DNA of 64,000 bases from NCBI RefSeq assembly GCF_000332095.2, contig NZ_KI913949.1:3702876-3766875 (forward strand), read 5' to 3'. Shown here in pieces: positions 1 through 8,593 of this stretch; the stretch's first letter is position 1; each line of letters opens with the position of its first letter. A program made the position numbers and the translations under genes. The notes beneath the pieces are model-generated. The model did no database searches. It was not told where the DNA came from and was given only the letters and a program-made list of their open reading frames with translations. The DNA comes from Leptolyngbya sp. PCC 6406. Its GTDB lineage: Bacteria > Cyanobacteriota > Cyanobacteriia > Phormidesmidales > Phormidesmidaceae.

Positions 1-256
1 GGTGACAGGTGTTAGGAATTTTAAGTTTTAAGTTTTAAGTTTTGAATTTTGAATTGAATTACCCGTAGGGGCGCGGTTTCCGCGCCCAATGCAGGGGTTG
101 GCAGGTGACAGGTGACAGGTGACAGAAACGTAGGGTGGGCAATGCCCACCTATCCAGGGATTGTGCTATTCCGAATAACAGTGTCGTAGGCAAATTGACC
201 CAGGCTATATAATTCATTTGAACTAACTCTGAACTCACTTCCCTTCATGGCCTGCT
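1..256. repeat. Repeat-rich gene-free left edge
   Basis: No gene is visible here. Positions 19-53 are a heptamer array (TTTTAAG three times, then TTTTGAA twice). Positions 65-87 hold the palindrome GGGCGCGGTTTCCGCGCCC preceded by GTAG. Positions 102-122 are CAGGTGA three times, and 134-150 is the palindrome GGTGGGCAATGCCCACC. The block from about 65 to 182 recurs inverted and nearly identical at 8424-8534. The first part (about 40-95) recurs directly at about 4698-4755. These look like dispersed non-coding repeats; I see no clear promoter for the gene that follows. Confidence 0.75.
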
Positions 257-4071: not shown

Positions 4072-4650
4072 TCAATCTATTGCTGAGAACCCACTCGCGG
4101 CCAGCGCGATCGCGGCGGGATAAATGCGGTGCTCCTGAACCTGGATCCGAGCCTGAAGGGTGGCAGGGGTATCGGTGGGGAATATGGGAACCGCCGCCTG
4201 CATAATAATCGGGCCGCTATCCACCACCAATTCCACAAAATGCACCGTGCAACCCGTCACCGTCACCCCCGCCTGGAGCGCCTGCTCCACCGCCCGCACC
4301 CCAGGGAAACTGGGCAATAAACTGGGGTGGATATTCACCATGCGGCGGGGGAAGGCGTCGAGTAACACCGCCGTAACCCGCCGCATCCAGCCCGCCATCA
4401 CCACCCAGTCCACCCAATGCTGTTTCAGGGTGGCGACGAGTGCCCCATCTAGATCTTCCCGTGTGGGGTGGTCGCGATGGTTGTGCAGCACCGTAGGGAG
4501 ACCATATTTCTCCGCCTGTGCCACGATCCCCGCCCCTGGGTTGTTGTAAATTACGACGGCAATCTCAGCGTGGAGTTGGCCGGTGGCAATAGCCGCCGCG
4601 ATCGCGGCCATATTGGTGCCATTGCCGCTGGCGAGGATGCCTAAGCGCCA
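4072..4650 (-). CDS. purN: Phosphoribosylglycinamide formyltransferase, start codon missing
   Basis: PurN transfers a formyl group from 10-formyl-THF to GAR in purine synthesis. Catalytic-site blocks are intact: VNIHPSLLPSFPG (Asn and His) and VVDSGPIIMQ (Asp). The first ATG in frame (4611) would remove the first strand and the GAR-phosphate loop. However, the frame stays open upstream and encodes WRLGILASGNGTN (positions 4612-4650), which is clearly the real N-terminal fold. It remains open to a TAA at 4714-4716, yet contains no ATG, GTG, TTG or CTG. A heptamer/palindrome repeat begins at about 4690, exactly where a start would be expected. The coordinates here cover the visible homology only. 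Initiation at a rare codon (ATC or ATT), an assembly error, or a repeat-damaged gene are all possible. Confidence 0.85.
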   Translation of the reverse strand, partial: WRLGILASGNGTNMAAIAAAIATGQLHAEIAVVIYNNPGAGIVAQAEKYGLPTVLHNHRDHPTREDLDGALVATLKQHWVDWVVMAGWMRRVTAVLLDAFPRRMVNIHPSLLPSFPGVRAVEQALQAGVTVTGCTVHFVELVVDSGPIIMQAAVPIFPTDTPATLQARIQVQEHRIYPAAIALAASGFSAID

Positions 4651-4689
4651 GGGCTGGGGCGATCGGGGTAGGGGATCGGGGATGGGGGG

Positions 4690-4746
4690 AGTTTTGAGTT
4701 TTGAATTTTGAATTTAATTTCCCGTAGGGGCGCGGTTTCCGCGCCC
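4690..4746. repeat. Heptamer array plus GC palindrome abutting purN
   Basis: GTTTTGA occurs twice (4691-4704), then ATTTTGA, followed by CCCGTAGGGG and the palindrome GGGCGCGGTTTCCGCGCCC (ending at 4746). It matches positions about 40-95 at the left edge of the window. The rest of the 4714-4974 spacer shows no gene. Confidence 0.75.
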
Positions 4747-4974
4747 AATGCAGGGGGTGGGTGGGGTGGATGCAGTTTGTGCGCCCAATGTAGGCGTGGC
4801 TTCGGACTGGGCATTCGTGAGTGCTTTAGCAGCCTACCGTTTTTTGCTGAATGGATTGGATGAGTTGACCGGGTTGACCGTTGGGTGGGGTTGTCGTGGT
4901 AAGTGTTTAGAGGCTCCCATTTTGCTCAGCTTTTGGCCTGGAGCTGGTCCTATCTGTCCTCTGTGTCCGATGCC

Positions 4975-5679
4975 ATGGCTCTTAACGCGGTTTTTTTTGA
5001 ACTGAGCGGTGTCATTATCAATGATGGAGCCCTGCGTCAGCGCCTTCTGGATGAGTTGCTGATCGGAGAAAATTTGCGCCCGGATCCGGGAGAATTTGAC
5101 CAAGTCTGTCGAGGGCGAGGGGATCGCACCTGTCTGCAAATGCTATTGTCGCGGCGGGGGCGGGTAATGGGTGCTGAAGGTCTGAAAAAACTTCTGGAGC
5201 TGCGATCGCAGCGCTACCAGGAAGGGCTAGCCAGCTTGGATCGGTTGCCGCTGTATCCAGGGCTAGAGGACTTCTTGTACCAGCTCAAGGTGGCCCAGAC
5301 ACCGTTAGGCATTGTCAGCGGGGCGCAGCGGGGAGATGTGGACTGGGTATTGCAGCGGGCCAAGTTAGCAACAGCCTTCAGTATCCTTGTGACGGCAGAA
5401 GACCTATCCCCAGGGGGGGACAAGCCCGCTGGGGAGGGGTATGAAGTTGCTATTGCTCGCCTTCAGGACCAGTACCCCGATCGGTTCATTTCCCCAGAGA
5501 CCTGTCTAGCGGTAGAATCTTCCTTCGCCGGGATTGCAGCGGCCCAAGCCGCAGGGGTACCCGTCGTGGGGGTGGCCCATCAGTACCCCTATCGGATGAT
5601 GCAGCGGCGGGCGGATGTAGCGGTGGATTATTTGAACGAGTTGGACTTGGACTGGCTAGGACGGTATTACAGGGATTGA
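4975..5679 (+). CDS. HAD-superfamily protein with altered catalytic motifs
   Basis: A 234-residue protein with the overall plan of HAD subfamily I phosphatases: motif I region at residues 5-13, helical cap at about 20-90, motif II Ser115 (LGIVSG), motif III Lys150 (GGDKP) and motif IV at 178-183. Motif I reads AVFFELSGV. Where active enzymes have DxD, it has Glu9 and Ser11. Motif IV reads VESS, so the second acidic residue of the usual ED pair is Ser182. The nucleophile, the general acid and one Mg ligand are therefore changed, and it may be a non-catalytic or repurposed HAD protein (inference). Start ATG 4975 gives the usual family N-terminus; an upstream in-frame start at 4903 adds residues without similarity. 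A heptamer repeat array follows immediately. Confidence 0.8.
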
Positions 5680-5680
5680 C

Positions 5681-5837
5681 TTTTACCCTTGTACCCTTCA
5701 CCTTTTACCCTTGTACCCTTCACCTTTTACCCTTCACCTTTTACCCTCTACCCTTCACCTTTTACCCTCTACCCTTCACCTTTTACCCTCTACCCTTCAC
5801 CTTTTACCCTCTACCCTTTACCTTTTGCCCTTTACCT
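5681..5837. repeat. Tandem array of 21-22 bp units built from heptamers
   Basis: Units of TTTTACC + CTCTACC (or CTTGTACC) + CTTCACC repeat about seven times; the 21-bp form is three heptamers in a row. It resembles the short tandemly repeated repetitive (STRR) sequences described in cyanobacteria. It fills the spacer between the HAD gene stop and the fumC ribosome-binding site. The array is open in the fumC frame but contains no ATG there, so I treat it as non-coding. Confidence 0.9.
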
Positions 5838-5860
5838 TTAATTCCCAGGGAGTAATTGCT

Positions 5861-7255
5861 GTGGTCAAGACTCGTACTGAAACCGACAGTATGGGGCCGA
5901 TTCCGGTGGCCTGCGATCGCTATTGGGGTGCCCAGACCCAGCGATCGCTCCATTACTTCGCCATTGGTGAAGACACCATGCCTCGGGAAATGATTCGAGC
6001 CTTTGGCATCTTGAAGCGGTCAGCGGCGGTGGTAAATGGGGATCTGGGCACGCTGACGGAATACCAGGTCCAAGCCATGGTGCAAGCGGCGGACGAAGTG
6101 ATTGAAGGGGAACTGGATGATCATTTTCCGCTGCGGGTGTGGCAGACCGGCAGCGGTACCCAGACGAATATGAATGCCAATGAAGTCATAGCCAACCGGG
6201 CCATTGAGATCCTGGGGGGCGAGGTGGGCAGCAAGACCCCGATTCATCCCAATGACCATGTGAATCATGGCCAGTCCTCGAATGACACCTTTCCCACGGC
6301 GATGCATATTGCCACGGTAGAGCAGATACACCATGCCCTGATCCCTGCGGTGACCCATCTGCGGGATGCCCTAGCGAAGAAGGCGGAGGATTTCGAGGCG
6401 ATTGTCAAAATTGGCCGCACTCACCTCATGGATGCGGTGCCCCTCACCCTAGGGCAGGAATTCTCTGGGTACGTGGCCCAGGTGAGCCAGGGGTTGCGGC
6501 GCATTGAGGCGATGCTGCCGGAACTGGGGGATCTGGCCATTGGCGGGACGGCGGTGGGTACGGGGCTCAACACCCATCCTGAGTTTGCCAAGCGGGTAGC
6601 CGCCGAGATCGCAGCCTATACCCAACTTCCCTTCCGCGCCGCTCCCAATCCCTTCGCCGCCCTGGCTGCCCACGACGCCCTAGTGGCCACCAGCGGCACC
6701 CTCAAAACCCTGGCGGTGGCCCTGATGAAAATTGCCAATGACCTCCGTTGGCTAGGGTCTGGCCCCCGCTGCGGCCTGGGGGAACTGCATCTGCCCGCCA
6801 ATGAACCGGGATCATCGATCATGCCGGGAAAGGTGAACCCGACCCAGTGTGAGGCGATGACGATGGTGTGTGTGCAGGTGATGGGCAATGATGCCGCGAT
6901 CGCGATCGCGGGCAGTCAGGGCAATCTTGAACTGAACGTGTTCAAACCCGTGATCATCCATAACCTGCTCCATTCCATCCGCCTGCTCACCGACGCCTGC
7001 CGCAGCTTCACCGATCACCTTGTCCTAGGCATCGAACCCAACCGGGCTCAGATTCAAACCTTTGTGGAAAACTCCCTGATGCTGGTGACAGCTTTGAACC
7101 CTATCATCGGCTACGACAAAGCGGCCCAAGTGGCGAAGAAAGCCTATACCGAAAACACCACGCTGCGGGATGCCTGCATTGCCCTTGGCTTCCTCACCGG
7201 AACCGACTTTGACCAGCAGGTCCGTCCCGATCAGATGACTCACCCATCCCGCTAA
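5861..7255 (+). CDS. fumC: Class II fumarate hydratase
   Basis: Interconverts fumarate and malate in the TCA cycle; a soluble homotetramer in the family. From GTG 5861 the protein has 464 residues, close to the 467 of E. coli FumC. The N-terminus ([22 protein letters not shown]), the [17 protein letters not shown] block, and the superfamily signature [15 protein letters not shown] at about residues 316-330 are all present. GTG 5861 is chosen because AGGGAG at 5847-5852 is well placed; a longer frame runs back into the tandem repeat and is not expected to be translated. C-terminal residues [14 protein letters not shown] match fumarases. Transcribed alone. Confidence 0.95.
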
Positions 7256-7289: not shown

Positions 7290-7349
7290 GGCGAAGCCTG
7301 CCCGTTGGCGATGAGCCTGCCTTTGGCATAGGGCTTAGAGGTGATGGGG
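7290..7349 (+). repeat. 60-bp repeat, left arm of an inverted pair
   Basis: Begins GGCGAAGCCTGCCCGTTGGC and ends GGTGATGGGG. The exact reverse complement is at 8534-8593. The two arms enclose a MITE, one minus-strand gene and other repeats. Confidence 0.85.
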
Positions 7350-7450
7350 TGTTGGGGGGCGGTTATACCAGCTCTCTGGGTATTGGCTACAAATAGGCAT
7401 CCCGTAGGGGCGTGCGGCTGCACGCCCAGGGCAAGATCTGTCGCAATGAC

Positions 7451-8423: not shown

Positions 8424-8534
8424 GCTGTTATCCGGAATAGCACAATCCCTGGATTGGTGGGCAATGCCCACCCTACATTTCTGTCACCTGTCACCTGCCA
8501 ACCCGTGCATTGGGCGCGGAAACCGCGCCCCTAC
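8424..8534 (-). repeat. Dispersed palindromic repeat block (inverted copy of 65-182)
   Basis: Read on the minus strand, this repeats the left edge of the window: GC palindrome (8512-8534), CAGGTGA heptamers (about 8481-8498), then GGTGGGCAATGCCCACC (8456-8472) and GGGATTGTGCTATTCCG. A further partial GC palindrome is at 8382-8396. The 8346-8637 spacer contains no gene. Confidence 0.8.
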
Positions 8535-8593
8535 CCCATCACCTCTAAGCCCTATGCCAAAGGCAGGCTCATCGCCAACGGGCAGGCTTCGCC
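8534..8593 (-). repeat. 60-bp repeat, right arm of an inverted pair
   Basis: Exact reverse complement of 7290-7349. It directly abuts the dispersed palindromic block. Confidence 0.85.

Follow-up and report, generated by a model that had tools for sequence, protein, structure and literature searches.

Loss of the purN start codon at a genome-specific repeat in Leptolyngbya sp. PCC 6406

The window analysed here, a stretch of 64,000 nucleotides from Leptolyngbya sp. PCC 6406 (contig NZ_KI913949.1, positions 3,702,876 to 3,766,875), carries on its minus strand a frame of 213 residues (4713-4072) which in a profile search scores 221.7 bits against the PurN family of GAR transformylases (TIGR00639), exceeding the curated cut-off of 150.1 bits. 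The protein body is full length and resembles PurN in all invariant columns, but the start and the first codons that are present in the purN genes of relatives are missing. A scan of the frame found no ATG, GTG, TTG or CTG between 4713 and 4612, and hence no standard start ahead of the phosphate loop; apart from the ATT with which the open frame begins, the codons to be considered are ATC 4683-4681, ATC 4638-4636 and the first ATG at 4611-4609, and a product translated from the latter would miss the phosphate loop GILASGNGTN. An earlier, sequence-only reading of this DNA had given both the coordinates of the frame and the lack of these four codons upstream of ATG 4611 exactly, and its statement that a start at ATG 4611 deletes the phosphate loop is borne out, as GILASGNGTN is encoded upstream of that position. 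By eye, no Shine-Dalgarno-like sequence precedes any of the three candidate rare starts (ATT 4713, ATC 4683 and ATC 4638), a search of 4600-5050 gave neither a sigma-70-like promoter nor a terminator, and the window has no match to any Rfam family. The purN leader is predicted to fold strongly (z -2.82).

Table 1. Features at the purN locus, in coordinates of the window
Feature	Position	Strand	Basis
Conserved purN body with short retained tail PPIPDPLPRSPQPW	4072..4689	-	PurN 221.7 bits; aligns to the closest sister (G001) from 4689 down; 43/43 invariant columns
CCCCCCA, possible -1 slip heptamer at the overlap of the ATG 4814 and purN frames	4683..4689	-	sequence and frames
Frame beginning at ATG 4814-4812 (or TTG 4748), without a stop across the repeat and shifted by one frame against purN; candidate ancestral start	4641..4814	-	frame analysis
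Composite repeat, palindrome GGGCGCGGAAACCGCGCCC then heptamers (AAAACTC/AAAATTC), at the place of the purN start in the sisters	4690..4760	-	94% identical to 31-101
ATT, first codon of the open purN frame, possible rare start	4711..4713	-	frame analysis
In-frame TAA stop closing the purN frame upstream, inside the repeat	4714..4716	-	frame analysis
Degenerate second copy of the palindromic unit	4772..4797	-	81% to the reference
ACACTTACCACG, 12-nt block upstream of purN, common to the window and G001	4895..4906	-	sequence comparison
Divergent neighbouring gene, same arrangement in G001	4975..5679	+	alignment, orthologue search

Ordinary purN starts, by comparison, are found in two sister species. 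In the closest sister genome (G001) the gene begins as ATG-SAALIS-PPLPQPLPRSPQPWRLGI and in a second one (G002) as ATG-TVALIS, whereas the window retains PPIPDPLPRSPQPWRLGI only, the first seven residues being gone; the peptide PPxPxPLPRSPQPW is common to the purN genes of G001 and the window, and in G001 it is preceded by ATG-SAALIS. At the DNA level, the homology between the window and G001 breaks exactly at the six-C run of the minus strand (4689-4684), with 77% identity over 600 nt on the purN side, while the divergent neighbour, which we take from its sequence to be phosphatase-like, aligns to G001 at 69% up to its own ATG. The composite repeat occupying the position of the purN start is 71 nt long, and a copy at 31-101 matches it at 94% identity. 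The sequence-only reading had recognised this repeat also near 40-95, had proposed that its insertion or expansion removed the original 5' end of purN, and had recommended a comparison with close relatives. The second copy is confirmed, and the proposal is supported by the ATG starts in G001 and G002 and by the resumption of homology at the C run.

Further upstream, the distance from the block ACACTTACCACG to the start is 76 nt in G001 and 80 nt to ATG 4814 in the window, which is one of two ATGs in 275 nt. The comparison suggests that ATG 4814 may be the ancestral purN start, with the insertion a few codons behind it: from this ATG to the C run there are 125 nt in the window versus 21 in G001, a net gain of 104 nt that is not a multiple of three. 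The frame of ATG 4814, to which the sequence-only reading makes no reference, is open to a stop at 4643 and overlaps the purN frame at CCCCCCA. It has no match in Pfam, and since the stretch 4814..4692 has a codon score of -0.03, compared to 0.25 for purN, this stretch does not resemble selected coding sequence. The idea that an intact original 5' end persists upstream of the repeat was rejected, as ATG 4814 lies at the expected distance but the LIS residues do not follow it, and 4766-4990 is not repeated elsewhere in the genome. Likewise rejected as the source of a +1 slip was the third upstream frame (position mod 3 = 1), which after its last stop at 4828 contains no ATG, GTG or TTG but only CTG 4753 and CTG 4651.

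With respect to the distribution of the repeat, a query slightly longer than the composite itself (4685-4765) gave 66 matches in the whole genome, 30 of which were examined as individual copies. Because the full-length composite is confined to this genome among the 19 searched, the 18 relatives showing shorter or weaker pieces only, and because the purN copy has a single mismatch in 48 positions to the consensus of the remaining 29 examined copies, the repeat would most likely have reached purN after the split from G001. When the flanks of the 30 copies were scored for codon usage, the flank at purN alone was typically coding (0.24, the next being 0.14), as judged against real coding windows, for which the median is 0.27 and the 20th percentile 0.17; three right flanks were unscorable, and no score was assigned to flanks interrupted by stops in all six frames. 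Most likely, then, the composite repeat does not normally adjoin coding sequence directly.

In its tandem 7-nt units, its hairpin-forming palindrome and its many copies dispersed in the genome, the element is like the short tandemly repeated repetitive (STRR) heptamers and the small palindromic dispersed repeats of cyanobacteria, and as with STRR its copies apparently lie mostly away from coding sequence. In Nostoc PCC 7120, an STRR with the capacity to fold into a hairpin has been described from the promoter region of hoxW (PMC2670836). The window repeat differs from STRR in that it has taken the place of the first codons of a gene and in that the full-length composite is genome-specific within the set searched; among the titles returned by literature searches there was no recognisable paper on this element. 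Related palindromic repeats in inverted orientation are found in the flanks at window positions 65-181, 7290-7350 and 8425-8593 (76 nt at 93%, 54 nt at 98%), including an inverted pair of 61 nt at 100% identity (7290-7350/8533-8593). A separate tandem array of 7-nt units (ACCCTTC/ACCTTTT...) at 5679-5853 almost reaches the start of the next gene, the plus-strand frame 5660-7255, presumably fumarase-like to judge from its sequence, for which GTG 5861, preceded by AGGGAG, could still provide a normal start.

To place the missing start in a wider context, 128 purN loci, drawn partly from whole genomes and partly from named genome contigs, were entered into a census, and the phosphate-loop motif was found in 127 of them (the exception being L128). 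Judged by their first 60 residues 103 loci are distinct, and only one of these, the window's own, has no ATG, GTG or TTG between the upstream stop and LGILASG; the absence of a standard start is more than chance. The tail ahead of the loop contains an (L/I)(I/V)SP-like motif in 83 of the 103. Excluded from the census were L034, which is the same locus as L004, and L033, the G002 contig, which carries a frameshift, the G002 gene itself having a normal ATG before TVALISPLLPDPW. The frame changes within the gene on L033 (1500-2300) are probably draft-assembly errors.

The body of the gene has been well preserved. In an alignment of 48 cyanobacterial sequences, the window purN has lost none of the 43 invariant and none of the 65 near-invariant columns, and pairwise comparison with G001 gives dN = 0.146 and dS = 1.128. 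Of the amino-acid changes that could be polarised, 7 fall to the window and 6 to G001, while 26 were left undecided. Mild signs in the other direction are a slightly longer tip branch (0.180 for the window, 0.122 for G001) and an identity to other purN sequences that in 37 of 46 cases is lower for the window than for G001. The intact body fits a recent loss of the start as well as a gene still in use with residual PurN.

The genome also encodes a complete alternative. PurT is present at full length with an ATG start and 576.3 bits (cut-off 502.15), and PurU is present with 390.5 bits (cut-off 285.95), so that, as known here from the genes, the formate-dependent PurT/PurU bypass is matched in both components and no difference from it was seen. 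In the account of single purN deletions of E. coli in PMC3261824, FGAR is still formed via PurT and PurU. Across 59 genomes including this one, PurT exceeds its cut-off in 36, and a PurN-level match was counted in 56; the raw profile tally is 58 at E 0.001, but the hits in G011 (3.3e-8) and G038 (1.5e-5) were not counted, being as weak as those of related formyltransferases elsewhere. Two genomes, G003 and G038 (the latter 97% complete), have PurT over the cut-off and no PurN-level match. The sister G003 was, however, rejected as evidence of gene loss, as the neighbouring gene is also absent at the orthologue level (only 6.4e-8) and the genome is 87% complete, so that a contig may be missing. 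Because of the intact PurT and PurU genes, the E. coli precedent and the genomes with PurT but without PurN, purN would not be expected to be essential here. The sequence-only reading had considered a hypomorphic essential gene and had itself named an intact purT as an observation that would speak against its view; with purT found intact and PurU also present, essentiality is not supported.

The reading we favour, at a probability of roughly 0.6, is that a lineage-specific repeat removed the start of purN in a recent event, that the loss is tolerated via PurT and PurU, and that PurN is made very little or not at all. After the split from the known sisters, a copy of the genome-specific palindrome-plus-heptamer repeat would have inserted into the first purN codons or spread across them; the comparison with these sisters shows that the conserved MxxxLIS residues are gone and that the remaining frame lies behind a TAA, without a usable start codon. 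The loss of the start would be tolerated by way of the other GAR transformylase route, in which PurT, supplied with formate by PurU, is presumably in use, both genes being intact. PurN would now probably be produced in very small amounts or not at all, and the start may have been lost recently enough that the body of the gene has not decayed.

In E. coli, infC and pcnB are known to be initiated at codons other than AUG, and as in these genes and in cvfC1, an AUU/AUC-type start would be needed by purN if the enzyme were still made at a low but useful level from ATC 4683, ATT 4713 or ATC 4638. This possibility, which the sequence-only reading had raised for the same three codons and which we regard as improbable, is compatible with a frame open from 4713, with an intact and constrained purN body and with the existence of bacterial AUU and AUA starts such as those of cvfC1 (AUU) and infC (AUA) in Staphylococcus aureus (PMC13009471). 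However, the S. aureus cases described there are conserved and have an extended Shine-Dalgarno sequence (PMC13009471), while a start at purN would be accidental, with no such sequence seen by eye before its candidates and with no second locus among the 103 distinct ones lacking ATG, GTG and TTG. Slightly less credit is given to -1 ribosomal slippage at CCCCCCA out of the ATG 4814 (or TTG 4748) frame, which would yield a PurN whose N-terminus is extended by residues encoded in the repeat. The overlapping frames do hold a slippery heptamer of the form X XXY YYZ (4689-4683), ATG 4814 is at the expected place, and its frame crosses the repeat without a stop until 4643. Yet an open frame says little here, given that the repeat itself is open in two of its three frames; the codon score of the upstream frame is far from that of purN, no stimulator of slippage was identified, and the arrangement is not conserved in relatives, which have in-frame starts. 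The broader notion that the repeat now belongs to purN itself, with the gene kept by either -1 slippage from a surviving upstream ATG or an AUC/AUU start, so that PurN would be a low-level enzyme with a repeat-encoded N-terminus and PurT would carry the flux, has a small but real chance of being correct.

The purN and ATG 4814 frames meet at a homopolymer of six bases, and a changed run length would join them; if sequencing or assembly had given the C run a false length, purN would be read in frame from ATG 4814. Such a slip at the C run is unlikely, and we give this explanation little weight, because the repeat by itself accounts for the lost start and no indel is needed. Homopolymer clipping as a general assembly fault was rejected, as the window has G/C runs of 7, 8 and 9 at 25.0, 7.8 and 1.6 per 100 kb, no fewer than in relatives. 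A codon-based scan for frame changes over 464 kb (the window and twenty 20-kb stretches of this genome), which recovered 69 of 80 planted single deletions, yielded 39 candidates, only four of them without a start codon near the change, and stray indels are therefore rare. Of the four, two are copies of a single transposase (HTH_32/DDE_3), one is an operon junction (ferredoxin-thioredoxin reductase/SufB) and one is a short frame. The two transposase copies belong to one insertion element (L175:2341-3561 + and L187:9576-10796 +), in which the gene is split into HTH_32 and DDE_3 frames that overlap, the second without a nearby start, as in elements with frameshifted transposases.

On the favoured reading, in which the repeat removed the purN start and PurT and PurU made the loss tolerable, the locus would clearly illustrate the removal of a gene's start by a small non-coding repeat, with the protein body left pristine and a parallel enzyme route also encoded. 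Automatic annotation could put the start of purN at ATG 4611, within the active fold, and caution is warranted in this respect. Should the N-terminus of PurN be encoded by the repeat after all, purN would be a natural example of a housekeeping gene between the loss of its start and its death. The locus offers a testable system for translation without ATG, GTG or TTG in cyanobacteria.
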